From the IMG/VR virus record IMGVR_UViG_3300036859_000142, positions 1-55,211 of that record: a DNA stretch of 55,211 nt. One strand, given 5' to 3'. Source of the DNA: a virus. The position numbers were made by a program, and so were the translations under genes. Each line of letters begins with the position of its first letter. Position 1 is the stretch's first letter. This document shows, one piece after another, positions 1,918-9,760 of this stretch. A model generated the notes under the pieces. It worked only from the letters and a program-made list of their open reading frames with translations. It was not told the origin of the DNA and searched no databases.

Positions 1918-2358
1918 ATGGCTGGAAACGAAAACAGCGGGCGCCGCCCGAATCCCACGTCATTGACGGTGCTCCGCGGGAACCCAAGTAAGAAAAGGCT
2001 TAATGAAAATGAACCTGTCCCACCACCTGGAGAGATTCAGAAACCGGCCGAGTTGTCGGCGGCTGGCGAGCAGGTGTGGGATGAGCTCGCGCCGATCTGC
2101 TTGGCCATGGGCACGCTGACGACGGCTGACGTGCGGCCGTTTACCACGATGTGCGAATTACAGGCGACGTTCACCGCGGCGGCCAGGGGGAAGGGCAGCG
2201 CGGCCTTTGACGCGAAGCTGGAGCGCGAGACGGCGAACGCGCTGCGGCCGTATTACGCGCTGTTCGGCTTGGAACCGGTTTCGAGGGCGCGGATTCAGGT
2301 GCCAAAAACTGGCCAGCCGGCGCCACCGGCCAGTAAGTGGGCAGGGGCGCTGAAGTGA
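1918..2358 (+). CDS. terS: Terminase small subunit, P27 family
   Basis: The 146-residue protein opens with MAGNENSGRRPNPTSL and LRGNPSKKRLNENEP, the basic leader and LxGNPxxR motif typical of P27-type small terminases, followed by helices around AAGEQVWDELAPICLAMG and DVRPFTTMCELQA. It binds the phage packaging site and recruits TerL. It overlaps the large-subunit start (GTG 2355) by four bases. Length is normal for the family. Confidence 0.9.
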   Translation: MAGNENSGRRPNPTSLTVLRGNPSKKRLNENEPVPPPGEIQKPAELSAAGEQVWDELAPICLAMGTLTTADVRPFTTMCELQATFTAAARGKGSAAFDAKLERETANALRPYYALFGLEPVSRARIQVPKTGQPAPPASKWAGALK

Positions 2359-3254
2359 CGCAGGAAACGGCGGCGGCCAGGGCGATTCGGTTAGTCAACC
2401 AGTTGACGCATACGAAGGGGCCGTTTGCCGATCAGCCGTTCAACCTTCGGCCGTGGCAAGTCCAGATTCTGAAGAAGTTGTTCAAGACGAAGCGCGACGG
2501 CTTGCGGCAATACCGGACGTGCCTGCTGATGCTGCCTCGGAAGAACGGGAAGACGGAACTCGCGGCCGCGCTAGCGATTTACTTTCTGCTGTTCGACAAC
2601 GAGATCGGGGCTGAGGTGTATTCAGCGGCAGCGGATAAGGACCAGGCGGCGCTCGTGTTCAACGTGGCTGCGCAGATGATCAGGAACGATGCCGAACTCC
2701 TGGCGCAGTGTGAACTGATCGATTCGCAGAAACGGATCGTGAACCGGCGCAGCGGGAGTTTCTATCGGGCGATTTCCGCTGAGGCCTACTCCAAGCACGG
2801 GTTCAACGCGTCGGCGGTGATTTATGACGAGCTGCACGCGGCACAGAGCCGGGAACTCTGGGATGTGCTGACGACGTCACAGGGCGCGCGGAAACACCCG
2901 TTGACACTAGCGATCAGCACCGCCGGGTACGACCGCCATTCGATCCTCTGGGAACTCTACCAGCACGCGAAGAAGGTATTAGAGAATCCCGCGCTCGATC
3001 CGACGTTCCTTGCAATTCTGTATGAAGCACCGATCGACGCCGACTGGACGGATGAACGCGTCTGGAAGAAAGCGAATCCGGCGCTCGGCGATTTCCGCAG
3101 CTTGGAAGAAATGCGTGTCGCTGCTGCGCGAGCTCAGGAAATCCCAGCGCAAGAGAACGTCTTCCGCAGACTCTATTTGAACCAATGGACGGAGCAGGCG
3201 GCACGGTGGATCCAGATGCCGACCTGGGATGCCTGCTGTGTGGTGAACGCATGA
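2355..3254 (+). CDS. terL: Terminase large subunit, ATPase part (split TerL)
   Basis: GTG at 2355 sits in a GTGA overlap with terS; an ATG at 2337 is possible but less well placed. The 299-residue product holds the packaging ATPase: Walker A-like LMLPRKNGKTE, a Walker B/catalytic region VIYDELHAA, and the coupling motif LAISTAGYD. The frame ends at TGA 3252-3254 right after RWIQMPTWDACC, the linker point of the family, so the RNase-H-like nuclease is missing. It is supplied by the next ORF, which starts inside this stop (ATGA). Either the terminase works as two polypeptides or there is a frameshift. Confidence 0.85.
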   Translation: MTQETAAARAIRLVNQLTHTKGPFADQPFNLRPWQVQILKKLFKTKRDGLRQYRTCLLMLPRKNGKTELAAALAIYFLLFDNEIGAEVYSAAADKDQAALVFNVAAQMIRNDAELLAQCELIDSQKRIVNRRSGSFYRAISAEAYSKHGFNASAVIYDELHAAQSRELWDVLTTSQGARKHPLTLAISTAGYDRHSILWELYQHAKKVLENPALDPTFLAILYEAPIDADWTDERVWKKANPALGDFRSLEEMRVAAARAQEIPAQENVFRRLYLNQWTEQAARWIQMPTWDACCVVNA

Positions 3255-3910
3255 CTCGCGCTGAATACCGCGCGAGCCTTCGTGGCCGACGGATGTATGT
3301 CGGACTGGACCTCAGCTCCACGAAGGATCTGACGGCTGCCGTCGGAACGTTTCCGGATGACGACGGCTTCGATGTGCTCCCCGCGTTCTTTTGTCCGAAG
3401 GATACGATCAAGGAAAGGTCGACACGGGATCGTGTGCCGTACGAGCAATGGATGCGCGATGGTCAGCTGATAGTCACGCCTGGAAACGTCGTGGATTACG
3501 AGGCGGTCCGCAAGCAGTTGCTAGATTGGGCCGACGAATTCGATCTACGCGAGATTGCCTACGATCCGTGGAACGCCACCGATCTCGTGACACGTCTTCA
3601 GGCGCAAGACGGCTTCGCCTGCGTGCCGATGCGCCAGGGGTTTGCCTCGCTGTCCTCGCCGACGAAATCACTCGAAAAGGCGGTCTTGTCCCGGACGTTG
3701 CGGCACGATGGCAATCCGATTTTGCGGTGGAACATGTCGAACGTGTCGGTCGAAAGCGATCCGTCAGGGAATATCAAAGTCTCCAAGAAAGTCTCGACGG
3801 AGCGGATCGACGGCGCGGCGGCATTGGTGATGGCAGTGGACGTCATGGAACGGAACAACAGCCAGAAGACGCCGAATTATGAAGTCCGGTTCTTTGGAGG
3901 GGTGCGGTAA
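3251..3910 (+). CDS. terL: Terminase large subunit, nuclease part (split TerL)
   Basis: ATG at 3251 overlaps the ATPase ORF stop in ATGA and lies in the -1 frame relative to it. The 219-residue product begins MTRAEYRASLRGRR and goes straight into MYVGLDLSSTKDLTA, the first acidic motif of the terminase nuclease. Further acidic positions are in REIAYDPWNATD and STERIDGAAALVMAVD. This is the complete nuclease domain that headful or cos terminases use to cut concatemers. ATGA coupling would give near-equal amounts of both halves. Split or frameshifted cannot be decided from one sequence. Confidence 0.85.
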   Translation: MTRAEYRASLRGRRMYVGLDLSSTKDLTAAVGTFPDDDGFDVLPAFFCPKDTIKERSTRDRVPYEQWMRDGQLIVTPGNVVDYEAVRKQLLDWADEFDLREIAYDPWNATDLVTRLQAQDGFACVPMRQGFASLSSPTKSLEKAVLSRTLRHDGNPILRWNMSNVSVESDPSGNIKVSKKVSTERIDGAAALVMAVDVMERNNSQKTPNYEVRFFGGVR

Positions 3911-4098
3911 TGGCCAAGCCAGGCCGTCCTCCGTTGGACGCCGCCGCGACAGCTCCGTCGGCTAATGTGCAATTACGTATTGCCGCCTCCGACTACGATC
4001 GGGCTCAAAAACTCGCCAAAGAATGCCGAGAGTCCGTCTCGGACACGATTCGTCGCGGCCTCAAGCGACTCCTAGACGAGCGCGGCAATAGCATTTAG
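3910..4098 (+). CDS. Small ribbon-helix-helix-like DNA-binding protein
   Basis: Starts in a TAATG overlap with the terminase nuclease gene. The 62 residues begin with a Lys/Pro-rich arm and continue with NVQLRIAASDYDRAQKLA and ECRESVSDTIRRGLKRLL, the strand-helix-helix layout of CopG/Arc-like proteins. These usually dimerise and bind operators with the strand. A role in packaging or late-operon control is only inferred from position. Confidence 0.6.
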   Translation: MAKPGRPPLDAAATAPSANVQLRIAASDYDRAQKLAKECRESVSDTIRRGLKRLLDERGNSI

Positions 4099-4128: not shown

Positions 4129-4148
4129 CCGTAGCCTCTAAGCTACGG
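4129..4148 (+). other. Perfect 7-bp hairpin
   Basis: CCGTAGC, six-base loop, GCTACGG. It lies in the gap between the ribbon-helix-helix gene and the ATPase-protease-capsid gene. No T-run follows, so it is not a typical terminator; it might protect or regulate the capsid mRNA. Confidence 0.4.
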
Positions 4149-4225
4149 TAAAGCACTCCTTATTTCCGTCTGCTGGTCAAGCCGAGCCACTGCGCTGGAA
4201 TCGGCGTCTCTCCAAAGCGTTCGAC

Positions 4226-7200
4226 GTGGCTGGGGAGCAATTTCCTGCCCGATCTGTCGAGGAAGCGCTCGTCGCCAAGTACCTCGAAGTTGAAATCAAG
4301 CATCTCGAACGGCGGGAGACACGCGTCCCCGCTGTTCGCATGGGCGCCTTTCTCACGGCTGTCAACGATGTTCTGCGGAAGTGGTCAGTTGACGACGTTC
4401 GGAATCTGAATTCCCGCGGGGAAGAGACGCCGCCCAGCTACGACATCATTCAGTTGAATTCCACGCAGAGCGCAGACTTCCTCGTCGATGGCATGCGGTT
4501 TCTGCATACGGCGGATGTTGCCAACGGTCAGCGCGCCAGCCTCCGAGTGCAAGCAGCCTGGTATGGCTTGGACGTCACGGCCTATGGGTTGCGCACTACT
4601 GGCACGGCAGAAAAGCTCCTCGGCGAAATCACCCACCGGTCCAAGGAAATCAATTTTCTGAAGGGCGAGGCGTTTTCCCTCTCAGGGGAATTCCTGCCGA
4701 AGACTGACGAGACATTCGCGGATTTATTCCTTGAGCAGAAGAATGCCGCGGCGCTTGACCGCGTAGTGAAATTGGTGAACGCCCGCGGGAAGACACTCGA
4801 GAACCGTGGCGTGCTGTTAATGGGACCGCCTGGCACTGGTAAAACGCTGGCGGCGCGGATCGTCAGAAACGAAGCCAAGGCCACGTTTATCTGGGTCAGT
4901 TCGCGAGACTTCCATTACAGCGGCAGCTTCGGCGGTTTCACGCAGGCGTTTGACATCGCGCGCGAATGCGCCCCATCCGTCGTCGTCTTTGAGGACATCG
5001 ATAACTGGTTGTACGACACGACGGTCGACCTGATTAAGACCGAGATGGACGGCGTGTCGAAGAGCGCCGGCGTTGTCACGGTCATGACAACGAACTACCC
5101 AGAACTCCTACCTGCCGCGCTAATTGATCGCCCTGGTCGTTTCCATGACGTGTTGAAGTTTGACCTGCCGAACGAGGCTGCGAGAAGCCAGATGCTGCAT
5201 CGCTGGCTCCCCAGCCTCACCACGGCTGATGTTATCCGAGCAGTCAAGGCGACCGCCGACTATAGCGGCGCGCACGTCCGAGAATTAGCCAGGTTTGCGA
5301 AGATCATTGCGGAGCAAGACGCGCTACCGATCGATCAGGCGCTCACCGTTGCGCTCACCAAACTCGCCGAACAACGCGACCTGATCACGACGACGCAGCG
5401 GACAGGGTCTCGTTATCGGATGGCGCCGGAGCTGCTGCAGAAGGCTGGCGCCACGACGGCGCGCATTCCGCAGCGCGCCTACGCACTGCTGCGTGTCAAG
5501 TCGATCGATGGAACACGACGCGTGTTCTCAGGCATGGCGACGACACCAGAACCAGATCGGCACGGGGACATCGTCGATCCGGCCGGTGTGAAGTTCCACA
5601 ACCCGCTGCCGCTACTGTTCCATCACGATCCCAAACACCCCGTTGGTACGGTGACCTTCCATCCGGCGACCACCGCCGGGATCGCCTTTGAGGCCACCTT
5701 GCCGGTCATCGAGGAGCCCGGCATCTTGAAAGATCGGGTCGATGAGGCCTGGCAGTCGATTAAGGCCGGCCTCATCACGGGCGTCTCGATTGGGTATCGC
5801 GTGGTCGACAACGCGATCCAAGTTCTCAAGGATGGCTCCGCAAAGCTGCTCAAGACGGAGGTCTTCGAATTAAGCCTCGTCACGATTCCAGCCAACGCGC
5901 AAGCCACCATCCTCAACGTCAAATCGCTTGATCTGGCCGCGTCCGGCCTTCACTCGCCCGGCGTTACGGGCCTCCCCGTTGTCCGAGCGCGCAAGGACGC
6001 GCCAGCTATGACTATCACCGAACAAATTACGCAATGGTCGAATACGCGTGCGCCGAAAGCCGCGCGGATGACCGAGTTGATGGCCAAGGCCGCTGACACC
6101 GGCGTGACCCTCGACGAGACACAGGCCGAGGAATACGACGGCCTCGAGCAGGAGATCAAGAGCATCGATGTGCATCTCACGCGGCTGCGTTCGGCTGAAC
6201 AAGCCAACCTCGCGGCCGCGACGCCGATCACGCCTATCACGACACAGACCAAGGCGTCCGAGATGCGTTCCGGCATCTCACAGGTACATGTCAAGCCGAA
6301 TGTGCCCAAGGGCACGGCGTTCACCCGCTACGTGATGGCGAAGATCGTCGGCAAGAACAGCCTGTCCGATGCGATTCGCTACGTCGAACAGAACCAGCAG
6401 TGGATGGATCAGACGCCGGAAGTCGCGCTGGCCCTGAAGGCCGTTGTGAATCCTGGCACGATCGCGGAACCTGCATGGGCGGCGCCGCTCGCGGTGGCCC
6501 GGCCGATGGTCGACGAATTCCTCGACATCCTCCGACCGGAAACGCTGATCGGCAAGATTCCAGGCTTGCGGAATGTGCCGTTCAACATCTCCATTCCGGT
6601 GCAGACCGGTGGTGGGACGTACAACTGGGTCGGAGAAGGCGCCCCGAAGCCGGTGGGCCAGCTCCAGTTCGCGAGCGTGACGCTGGGGATCGCGAAGGCC
6701 GCGGGGATCATCGTGATCTCGGAAGAGCTCGCGAAGATCTCCAGTCCGTCGGCGGAAGGCGTCGTACGCAACGACATGATCCGCGGGATGGCGCAGTACC
6801 TCGATCTGCAGTTCATCGATCCGACGATCGCGGCGGTGGCGAATGTCTCGCCGGCCTCGATCACCAACCTCGCGAACGGCTTCGCCACGGCCGGCACCTC
6901 GGGCGACAACGCGCGCACCGACATCAAGAAAGCGATTACCTTGATGACGGCGGCGAACTATCCGATCTCGGAAGTCGTGCTGATCATGTCTGAGGCGAAC
7001 GCGTTCGCACTGTCAACCGCGCTCAGCACTAACGGCGTGCGTGTTAATCCGGATCTGACGGCGAAGGGCGGCAACATTCTCGGCGTGCCCGTCGTGACGA
7101 GTCAGGCGGCTGGGCAAGTTGTCGCACTCGTGCATGCGCAGTCGATTCTGTTTGCTGATGATGGTGGTGTGAACATCGATGTGAGCCGTGAGGCGAGTGT

Positions 7201-7357
7201 CGAGATGAACACCGCACCGACGTCACCGGCGACGGCATCGAGTGTCTATATCTCGCTGTGGCAACTGAACTTGATAGGTTTACGCGCAGAGCGCTTCATA
7301 AATTGGAAACGCGCGCGGACTACGGCCGTAGTGTATACGACCGCAACTTATGTGTAA
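4226..7357 (+). CDS. AAA+ ATPase - prohead protease - major capsid fusion
   Basis: One uninterrupted 1043-codon frame from GTG 4226 holds three modules. Residues 1-190 are an uncharacterised head; 195-395 are an AAA+ ATPase with Walker A GPPGTGKT (200-207), Walker B VVVFEDID (252-259), sensor MTTN (287-290) and arginine-finger-like RPGRF (302-306). Residues 415-570 resemble the HK97 prohead protease (U35/S78): LLFHHDP with candidate His 466/467, GVSIGYRV with candidate Ser 521, and FELSLVTIPAN. Residues 595-690 are helical and charged like the HK97 delta scaffold, and 695-1043 have the HK97 capsid fold signature. In HK97 these are separate gp4 and gp5, and no AAA+ partner is fused. The ATPase could unfold or assemble capsid subunits. 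Start has no clear ribosome site. Confidence 0.85.
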   Translation: MAGEQFPARSVEEALVAKYLEVEIKHLERRETRVPAVRMGAFLTAVNDVLRKWSVDDVRNLNSRGEETPPSYDIIQLNSTQSADFLVDGMRFLHTADVANGQRASLRVQAAWYGLDVTAYGLRTTGTAEKLLGEITHRSKEINFLKGEAFSLSGEFLPKTDETFADLFLEQKNAAALDRVVKLVNARGKTLENRGVLLMGPPGTGKTLAARIVRNEAKATFIWVSSRDFHYSGSFGGFTQAFDIARECAPSVVVFEDIDNWLYDTTVDLIKTEMDGVSKSAGVVTVMTTNYPELLPAALIDRPGRFHDVLKFDLPNEAARSQMLHRWLPSLTTADVIRAVKATADYSGAHVRELARFAKIIAEQDALPIDQALTVALTKLAEQRDLITTTQRTGSRYRMAPELLQKAGATTARIPQRAYALLRVKSIDGTRRVFSGMATTPEPDRHGDIVDPAGVKFHNPLPLLFHHDPKHPVGTVTFHPATTAGIAFEATLPVIEEPGILKDRVDEAWQSIKAGLITGVSIGYRVVDNAIQVLKDGSAKLLKTEVFELSLVTIPANAQATILNVKSLDLAASGLHSPGVTGLPVVRARKDAPAMTITEQITQWSNTRAPKAARMTELMAKAADTGVTLDETQAEEYDGLEQEIKSIDVHLTRLRSAEQANLAAATPITPITTQTKASEMRSGISQVHVKPNVPKGTAFTRYVMAKIVGKNSLSDAIRYVEQNQQWMDQTPEVALALKAVVNPGTIAEPAWAAPLAVARPMVDEFLDILRPETLIGKIPGLRNVPFNISIPVQTGGGTYNWVGEGAPKPVGQLQFASVTLGIAKAAGIIVISEELAKISSPSAEGVVRNDMIRGMAQYLDLQFIDPTIAAVANVSPASITNLANGFATAGTSGDNARTDIKKAITLMTAANYPISEVVLIMSEANAFALSTALSTNGVRVNPDLTAKGGNILGVPVVTSQAAGQVVALVHAQSILFADDGGVNIDVSREASVEMNTAPTSPATASSVYISLWQLNLIGLRAERFINWKRARTTAVVYTTATYV
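5993..6010 (+). promoter_or_regulatory. Probable internal ribosome site and start for the capsid protein
   Basis: AAGGA at 5993-5997 is followed ten bases later by ATG 6008, in frame with the fusion gene, at residue 595 just after the protease module. Initiation here would give a 449-residue delta-domain-plus-capsid protein, close to the usual size of an HK97-type capsid precursor. This would let the phage make capsid in excess over the ATPase-protease fusion, as lambda does with nested C and Nu3. Confidence 0.5.
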
Positions 7358-7480: not shown

Positions 7481-8161
7481 ATGGCAGCGTGCGTGATCTG
7501 CGGCGATGTGACACCGCTACCGAAAAAGCGAGGACAAGCGCCGAAGTATTGCAGTCAGAAGTGCCGACTAGATGGGCGTGGCTTAGCGAGACAAACACTT
7601 AGAGCAACGACGCCTGACACCGTCCGAGGACGGAATCGACTCAAGCAAGCGAAGTGGCGTGCGAACAAGCCTGAGAGTTTCCGAGCGTATCGCAAAAAGC
7701 ACTACGCGGAGAATCGCCAACTGATTCTTCAGCAACGCAGAGAGAGACTGGATCTTGGGAAAGAGCGCGCGATGGCGCGACAGAGATATGCCAAGAACCG
7801 TGAGCATGTCAGGGCACGTGAGAATGCCAGGCGAGAGCGCGCTGACATCAAAGAGTCGGCTCGGCGCCGCACGGCGTTGTGGCGCATTCAGAATCCAGAA
7901 CGCTCCAAACAAAACAACTTCCGATCTGGGGCTGAGTGGCGTGCTCGAATTAAAAATCTGTTCATTGAAACTATCAGCCGCACGGTGGTCTTTGTTCGCG
8001 ACAAGGGTCAATGCGGCATCTGCTCAACGCCAGTCGATCCCGCCAGCCCGTGGGAAGTCGACCACATCATTCCGATCTCCAAAGGCGGGCCGCACTCGTA
8101 CGCCAACGTTCAACTCTCTCATCGGAAGTGCAATCGCCCTAAGAGCGCACGCCTGCTCTAG
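7481..8161 (+). CDS. HNH endonuclease, homing-type candidate
   Basis: ATG 7481 follows a strong ribosome site (AGGAGGA, about seven bases upstream). The 226-residue protein starts with a Cys-rich finger (CVICGDVTPLP, YCSQKCRLDGRG), then a long Arg/Lys/Glu-rich helical region with repeats of the type KxxxAENRxxI, and ends with an HNH core: CGICSTPV, WEVDHIIPISKGG, NVQLSHRKCNRPK. Such HNH genes often sit as intruders inside late operons. It separates capsid from portal genes and has its own strong ribosome site after a terminator, in line with a mobile nuclease. Confidence 0.85.
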   Translation: MAACVICGDVTPLPKKRGQAPKYCSQKCRLDGRGLARQTLRATTPDTVRGRNRLKQAKWRANKPESFRAYRKKHYAENRQLILQQRRERLDLGKERAMARQRYAKNREHVRARENARRERADIKESARRRTALWRIQNPERSKQNNFRSGAEWRARIKNLFIETISRTVVFVRDKGQCGICSTPVDPASPWEVDHIIPISKGGPHSYANVQLSHRKCNRPKSARLL

Positions 8162-8371: not shown

Positions 8372-9760
8372 ATGTCCTTCCTCGATCGCTTTACCGGCAC
8401 CACGCTCAGCCTGCAGACGAAGGCACAGCAGACGTTGCAGCCGTTGAATTCTCGCGGGTCATGGTGGCCGGTGATCCGTGAGAGTTTTTCAGGCGCGTGG
8501 CAGCGCAATGTGGACATCAACGTCGACACGGTTCTCACGTTCCACGCCGTGTATGCGTGCATCTCTTTGATCGCTGGCGATATTTCCAAGATGTGCCTGC
8601 GGTTGGTGGCCGAGGACGAGAACGGCATTTGGGAACCCGTTGAGAGCGCGGCGTTCTCTCCGGTGCTGCGCAAGCCGAATCGCTACCAGAACCGGATCAA
8701 GTTCTTTGAATGGTGGATGACCTCCAAACTGATCAACGGGAATACGTATGCGTTGAAGCAACGGGATCAGCGGGGCGTGGTGACGGCGCTCTACATCCTC
8801 GATCCGATGCGCGTCACGCCGCTCGTGGCTCCGGATGGTGCGGTGTTCTATCAGTTGAAGCGGGACGATCTGTCCGGGATCCCGGATGACGACCTGATCA
8901 AGAACACCGTTCCTGCGAAGGAAATCATTCACGACATCATGTGCGCGCTCTATCACCCGTTGATCGGGGTCTCGCCCATTCACGCGTGCGGGCTCGCGGC
9001 CTTGCAAGGGCTGAAGATTCAGAACAATTCGTACAAGTTTTTCGCGAATGGATCCGTGCCTGGGATGGTCGTGACCGTGCCAGGGCAGATCAAACAGGAA
9101 CAAGCGGACGCCATCAAAGCCGCATGGGATCTGAATTTCGGCGGCGACAACTTCGGCAAGGTCGCGGTGCTCAGCGATGGCATGACGGCCGAAGGGTTGA
9201 AGATCAGCAACGTGGACGCGCAGTTGATCGAGCAGTTGAAGTGGACGGCCGAAGTCGTGTGTTCGGTGTTCCACGTGCCCCCCTACATGATTGGCGTCGG
9301 GCCTCCCCCGAACTACAACAACATTGAAGCCCTGAACCAGCAGTACTACCAGCAGGCGCTGCAGCATCCCGTGGAATCGATCGAACTGTGCCTCGATGAA
9401 GGGTTGGAACTGCCGAAGCCTTACGGCACGGAATTCGATCTCGATGATCTGTTGCGCATGGACACGGCCGCGATGATCGATTCGGAAGGCAAAGCCGTCG
9501 GCGCCGGGATCAAGGCGCCGAACGAATCGCGCAAACGTATGAACCTGAAGCCGAAGCAGGGCGGGGATACGCCGTACCTGCAGCAGCAGAACTATTCCCT
9601 GGCCGCGCTAGATCGGCGCGATCAAACCCCTGCGCCGGCGACGAATGTGCAGCCAGTGCCACCGCTGGATGACGAACCTCAGGCGGATCTGGCGGCGAGT
9701 TTCGGCGAAGCCCTCCACCGCAAGATGATCGAGCGCCAGCTCTATGCCGCCTGGCGCTGA
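8372..9760 (+). CDS. Portal protein, HK97 family
   Basis: The 462-residue product has the portal-family layout: VDTVLTFHAVYACISLIAGDI, the FEWWMTSKLINGNTYALKQRD core, the DLSGIPDDDLIKNTVPAKEIIH region, the GLKISNVDAQLIEQLKWTAE and VFHVPPYMIGVG segments, and a C-terminal domain ending in a basic tail. Portal proteins form the dodecameric ring for DNA entry and exit at one capsid vertex. Length is normal. It overlaps the next gene by about 17 bases. Confidence 0.92.
   Translation: MSFLDRFTGTTLSLQTKAQQTLQPLNSRGSWWPVIRESFSGAWQRNVDINVDTVLTFHAVYACISLIAGDISKMCLRLVAEDENGIWEPVESAAFSPVLRKPNRYQNRIKFFEWWMTSKLINGNTYALKQRDQRGVVTALYILDPMRVTPLVAPDGAVFYQLKRDDLSGIPDDDLIKNTVPAKEIIHDIMCALYHPLIGVSPIHACGLAALQGLKIQNNSYKFFANGSVPGMVVTVPGQIKQEQADAIKAAWDLNFGGDNFGKVAVLSDGMTAEGLKISNVDAQLIEQLKWTAEVVCSVFHVPPYMIGVGPPPNYNNIEALNQQYYQQALQHPVESIELCLDEGLELPKPYGTEFDLDDLLRMDTAAMIDSEGKAVGAGIKAPNESRKRMNLKPKQGGDTPYLQQQNYSLAALDRRDQTPAPATNVQPVPPLDDEPQADLAASFGEALHRKMIERQLYAAWR

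Follow-up and report, generated by a model that had tools for sequence, protein, structure and literature searches.

What is an AAA+ ATPase doing in the same polypeptide as a phage prohead protease and a major capsid protein? The window analyzed here, itself a virus record of 55,211 bases, carries a gene of this kind. Prohead maturation of tailed phages is generally taken to be free of ATP apart from the terminase. Fusions of the protease to the capsid protein are known; judged from sequence, the addition of an AAA module to the prohead protease appears to be undescribed.

One reading frame for four domains

The frame has no stop across 4226-7357, or 1043 codons from the listed GTG at 4226, as the preliminary description had claimed, and it even remains open from 4142 (1071 codons counted from that position). 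Along the chain follow the AAA ATPase, the S78 prohead protease, a coiled-coil delta segment, and the HK97-type major capsid protein (Table 1). Pfam matches to AAA (PF00004; residues 196-313, 3.1e-20), Peptidase_S78 (residues 461-563, 1.5e-9, 38.6 bits against a cut-off of 21), and Phage_capsid (residues 787-990, 9.9e-16, 58.4 bits against a cut-off of 24.2) all lie above their cut-offs. PHROG 617, a family of protease-capsid fusions, matches residues 416-1041 (2.9e-129), and PHROG 10 also matches the capsid. The three modules originally named were thus correctly identified, and the motifs cited for the ATPase (GPPGTGKT and VVVFEDID) and for the protease (HHDP and GVSIGYRV) are present, but the three-module picture missed a fourth part, the helical delta or scaffold segment between protease and capsid.

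Table 1. Features of the fusion gene and its flanking head genes, in window coordinates.
Feature	Position	Strand	Basis or remark
Large terminase (context), two overlapping ORFs	2337..3910	+	Pfam, PHROG
Whole fusion open frame	4142..7357	+	Listed start GTG 4226
Conserved N-terminal EPLRWNRRLSKAFDV segment ("RWN segment")	4181..4225	+	Upstream of listed GTG 4226
AAA module: pre-AAA alpha/beta domain (about residues 25-170), AAA core, lid	4181..5404	+	pLDDT 93, Foldseek
Walker A GPPGTGKT, Lys codon 4841	4823..4846	+	Lys and Thr invariant, 55/55
Walker B VVVFEDID	4979..5002	+	E-D-x-D invariant, 55/55
DRPGRF, putative arginine fingers	5126..5143	+	Invariant, 55/55
Disordered linker between AAA and protease, with Met codon 5420 (RYRMAP)	5405..5467	+	Full-length model
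S78 prohead protease domain	5468..5899	+	Pfam, PHROG, model
Protease His, Ser, and Glu	Codons 5624, 5786, and 5867	+	Invariant in alignments
Disordered linker, candidate cleavage region	5900..6013	+	Full-length model
Helical coiled-coil delta/scaffold segment	6014..6217	+	Full-length model
Disordered linker 5' of capsid domain, candidate cleavage region	6218..6295	+	Full-length model
HK97-type major capsid protein	6296..7354	+	Pfam, PHROG, model
Portal protein (context)	8372..9760	+	Pfam, PHROG

By their residues, both enzymes appear intact. The AAA module carries the Walker A, Walker B, sensor 1, and arginine finger elements by which AAA ATPases (PF00004) are recognized, with the sensor Asn and DRPGR invariant in 55/55 aligned modules. 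The S78 protease likewise looks active, its catalytic His and Ser and a conserved acidic residue being kept. Structure prediction for the full chain (46 sequences), which the preliminary description had proposed, gave four confident parts separated by disordered linkers. The overall pTM is 0.46, a low value that is expected for beads on a string. Counting residues from nt 4181, the parts are AAA 1-408, linker 409-429, protease 430-573, linker 574-611, coiled coil 612-679, linker 680-705, and capsid 706-1058.

The listed start of this gene is doubtful. The conserved EPLRWNRRLSKAFDV segment lies in frame just 5' of GTG 4226 and is also present in three other loci with this domain order (L002, L023, and L101), and no Shine-Dalgarno pairing was found at GTG 4226. 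For both reasons, translation probably does not begin at GTG 4226, which corrects the start adopted in the preliminary description and leaves its unbroken frame intact. No ATG, GTG, or TTG was found between the preceding stop and EPLRWNRRLSKAFDV (window 4142-4226), and the fusion gene may use an unusual start codon within 4142-4226.

A fusion of this kind might be an assembly artefact that joined adjacent genes, a concern already voiced in the preliminary description, given that the source is a metagenomic virus contig and that the upstream terminase is split over two frames. However, the order AAA-S78-capsid recurs in one frame on three other contigs (IMGVR 3300050821_004703, 3300050821_017996, and 3300010362_000050), corresponding to loci L002/L099 and L023/L100 in metagenome 3300050821 and L101 in metagenome 3300010362. 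The terminase split, too, is no sign of error, since three relatives share it, with start/stop overlaps. Together, these observations rule out an artefact for all practical purposes. The preliminary description had further looked to relatives with separate genes, combined with a stop or frameshift in this sequence, as a sign against a fused gene; relatives with a separate ATPase gene do exist (L108, L131, L143, and L144), but the frame here has no such break.

Linkage and history of the AAA module

Over residues 416-1041, along protease, delta, and capsid, the window protein resembles the PHROG 617 fusions of Pseudomonas phage PAJU2 and Escherichia phage JLK-2012, with 38.6-39.8% identity to isolates and up to 70-75% to IMG/VR relatives. 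These PHROG 617 fusions have no AAA in front, and the window's matches to them begin at about residue 416. Fusions of S78 protease and capsid also occur in thaumarchaeal proviruses (PMC6563490). The head module of HK97 (gp4 protease, gp5 capsid) has the same order of S78 protease, delta coiled coil, and capsid, but its genes are separate, whereas those of the window are fused and have an ATPase added.

No counterpart of the complete AAA module was found among 50,697 phage records, in which only the generic AAA core was matched. No relatives of the full module were found in 398 Pseudomonadota genomes (a search run without a positive control), and a scan of genome contigs returned distant bacterial AAA proteins only. 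The AAA protein annotated as a "proteasome regulatory subunit" in the N4-like phages Rexella, Zuri, and Pylas shares the generic core at 26-37% identity, but the match is limited to that core, and the protein is annotated as stand-alone, unfused to head proteins. We found no description of an AAA-prohead protease fusion in the literature searched, which included few subscription journals, so that absence is weak evidence. The earlier statement that no known fusion of this kind starts with an AAA+ module accordingly agrees with cultured phages and with this literature, but it was made without sight of the commoner order, in which the AAA module follows the protease.

That order emerged from searches of IMG/VR with a profile of the AAA module, which identified 77 loci and, in a second search, 42 that overlapped with these. 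Removal of near-copies and end-truncated ORFs left 70 non-redundant AAA modules. The order S78 protease-AAA-tail in a single ORF is common (62/70), whereas the AAA-first order of the window is rare (4/70). In the other 4/70, the AAA is a separate gene directly adjoining the S78 gene, with the protease just upstream in L108 and just downstream in L131, L143, and L144. Every one of the 70 modules is thus fused to, or lies beside, an S78 prohead protease gene in a head module. In one locus (L148, 2-2522), a break inside the pre-AAA domain leaves the protease-AAA frame as two overlapping ORFs, through a frameshift or a sequencing error.

In ORFs of the common order, the N-terminal protease is a homologue of the protease of the window type (hhalign probability 99.6, E 7e-25); of 48 such sequences, 46 retain the S78 His, 47 the Ser, and 47 the Glu. 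Genes 5' of the S78-AAA ORFs encode portal or head-morphogenesis proteins, and a major capsid gene lies 3', with capsid families found in 19/20 cases. The motif GRVLS-x-x-NR follows the AAA in 32/49 tails, yet in the isolated Geobacillus phage GBK2, whose prohead protease has 233 residues, it stands directly after the protease domain, which places the AAA inside the protease-scaffold gene. By this comparison, the AAA module appears as an insertion between the protease domain and a scaffold-like tail. Comparison of the tails with PHROG families gave two weak protease matches and was otherwise uninformative.

Taken together, the genomic data define what looks to be an undescribed family in which the prohead protease has incorporated an AAA module, and there is good support for a genetic link of this module to head maturation. 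An ATPase wired to the prohead protease is conserved across a diverse set of about 70 uncultured phages, whether fused in either of two orders or encoded by a neighboring gene, and this is strong genetic evidence for an ATP-dependent assembly or maturation step in some lineages. The ATP-driven step suggested in the preliminary description is strengthened by the 70/70 linkage with S78, while its mechanism can only be proposed (see below).

The AAA-first fusions have a mosaic history. The window AAA is 83% identical to that of L002, 82% to that of L023, and 59% to that of L101, but the window capsid is only 33-42% identical to the other AAA-first capsids (33-36% for L002/L023). Its closest capsids, at 84-87%, belong to L003, L004, and L008, phages without the AAA. 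The similarity of the AAA modules against the divergence of the capsids from L002/L023 indicates transfer of the AAA from one head module to another, with a breakpoint at RYRMAP, beyond which identity to L002 falls. The AAA tree separates the four: L101 falls with L178, a phage of the S78-AAA order, whereas the other three (the window, L099, and L100) fall with L176 and L177. A single origin of the AAA-first fusions, with the four rows held together, was rejected (AU p = 0.0006). The trees thus point to at least two origins of the AAA-first triple fusion, or to reshuffling by recombination.

Such mosaicism is what a mobile passenger might leave behind, for instance an anti-defense or host-takeover gene lodged at a tolerated site in a head gene and without a function in the head. 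A passenger would, however, be expected at other sites as well, yet all 70 modules sit with a prohead protease; in addition, the exact in-frame AAA-first fusion arose at least twice by the AU test, and both enzymes retain their catalytic residues. We therefore regard a passenger as very improbable. The ratio dN/dS of the window AAA is about 0.07 against L002 (0.12/1.67) and L023 (0.13/1.79), indicative of strong purifying selection on the module, and about 0.24 against L101.

Predicted fold and proposed role in the head

The AAA module is predicted to fold with a mean pLDDT of 92.8 (monomer model). In Foldseek searches, its top PDB matches were YjoB (8.5e-19) and Bcs1 (5.5e-17), both chamber-type AAA proteins, aligned across almost the entire module with its pre-AAA domain. 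Matches restricted to the AAA core extended to p97, i-AAA, and proteasomal ATPases. Of the two top matches, YjoB is a putative chaperone whose hexamer has an internal chamber. The similarity to YjoB/Bcs1 (PDB 7w42, 9gsn, and 8t14) spans about 400 residues at 18-20% identity, but the window AAA differs in having no visible transmembrane segment and in being attached to a phage protease and capsid. By inspection of the sequence and alignment, no hydrophobic stretch that could form a transmembrane helix lies N-terminal of the pre-AAA domain. TM-scores are about 0.5 (about 0.45 for Bcs1) with an rmsd near 10, so the domains are arranged differently and the relationship is one of resemblance to YjoB/Bcs1, not membership. 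Bcs1 transports a folded protein (PMC11143374, PMC12219900).

The AAA core is also shared with p97/Cdc48 and with i-AAA/FtsH. The window module nevertheless lacks the p97 N domain and an FtsH-type metalloprotease, its Walker B reads E-D where p97 has D-E (an order swapped from the usual), and its pore-loop aromatic is not conserved. No Lon, M41, or ClpP protease domain was found in the fusion, whose protease is S78.

These comparisons bear on whether the module could be part of a threading protease analogous to Lon or FtsH, in which an AAA ring would unfold scaffold or unassembled capsid chains and feed them to S78. The hard-wired linkage of ATPase and protease in both orders fits this reading, as does a core sequence nearest to p97/Cdc48 (1e-34 to 1e-51) and, more weakly, to i-AAA. 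Some members, the window included, have Y-x-G at the position of pore loop 1. Against it, the aromatic-hydrophobic-Gly pore loop 1 is not conserved across the 55 aligned modules (Tyr in 20/55 and Gly in 36/55 at the respective positions), the best full-length folds are YjoB and Bcs1 rather than protease-linked unfoldases, and the ATPase is a separate chain in four phages. Threading thus seems unlikely, although it deserves serious attention. The full-length fold match to YjoB/Bcs1 and the unconserved pore-loop aromatic favor a chaperone-like remodeler over a threading protease, and the module is most likely a ring-type ATPase of the YjoB/Bcs1 kind.

On balance, we favor the reading that the ORF is a genuine head-module polyprotein, composed of a ring AAA of the YjoB/Bcs1 kind, an S78 protease, a delta/scaffold segment, and an HK97 capsid protein, in which the ATPase acts as an ATP-consuming chaperone. 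The chain would join the growing prohead so that its N-terminal half lay in the interior, where the AAA modules of neighboring chains would form rings. Acting as a chaperone or remodeler on capsid and scaffold chains, rather than by threading them, these rings would spend ATP on folding, holding, or rearranging those chains, and so promote correct lattice formation or presentation of the scaffold to the protease. The protease would then cut the linkers and release the capsid domain. Removal of both ATPase and scaffold by the protease, as first suggested in the preliminary description, would be compatible with the predicted linkers at 409-429, 574-611, and 680-705.

The copy number of the ATPase is constrained by space. 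In a rough estimate that assumes cavity radii of 20 and 24 nm, one AAA, protease, and delta per capsid subunit would occupy 1.16 of the cavity at T=7 and 0.86 at T=9, compared with 0.48 (T=7) and 0.36 (T=9) when the AAA is left out. A prohead in which every capsid subunit kept its AAA would thus be overfilled, which implies that most subunits lack the AAA, through an internal start or early cleavage, or that the head is larger. In the favored chaperone reading, only a fraction of the capsid subunits may carry the AAA at assembly.

The same estimate is in keeping with a different role, in which internal initiation or early self-cleavage would free a low-copy AAA, as a core or injected protein, to act after ejection or on the host, and the shared frame would serve co-delivery only. 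The Met of RYRM(A), at the same position within the disordered linker in all four AAA-first fusions, is a candidate internal start (Met codon 5420 in the window). However, its Shine-Dalgarno pairing in these fusions is weak (-1.7 to -4.6 kcal/mol), and in the protease-AAA fusions the AAA is usually flanked by the protease and the tail, a placement that speaks for a head function and against mere co-delivery. We consider this account improbable.

Beyond the single locus, there is a fair chance, somewhat below even, that these phages represent an undescribed class of tailed phages in which an ATP-driven ring machine in the protease-scaffold chain builds or matures heads. Its ATPase would lie inside the prohead and be separate from the terminase, possibly as AAA hexamers under the capsid hexamers. 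The Walker A lysine provides a defined target for a test of these proposals, and the family gives a name to proteins annotated just as protease or generic ATPase.

Genes around the fusion

In the window terminase, the ATPase (ORF 2337-3254) and the nuclease are encoded by different ORFs, and the stop of the first overlaps an ATG as ATGA. An equivalent split with ATGA or GTGA is found in L005, L006, and L008, so the terminase is probably a real two-gene enzyme, and a frameshift error is ruled out by these shared start/stop overlaps. L019 and L020 (1753-2040) have a terminase that breaks at the same domain boundary, but there about 290 bases separate the two ORFs, possibly an intron or insertion.

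Directly before the fusion lies a small ribbon-helix-helix-like ORF (3910-4098), relatives of which precede the protease-capsid gene in L004, L005, L006, L007, and L100. Between the capsid and portal genes, an HNH endonuclease gene (7481-8161) may encode a homing endonuclease. Farther downstream, inside the structural region, the ORF at 11077-11724 matches PHROG 4603 (alpha-2,3-sialyltransferase; 2.1e-30) and has a weak MptE-like Pfam match.
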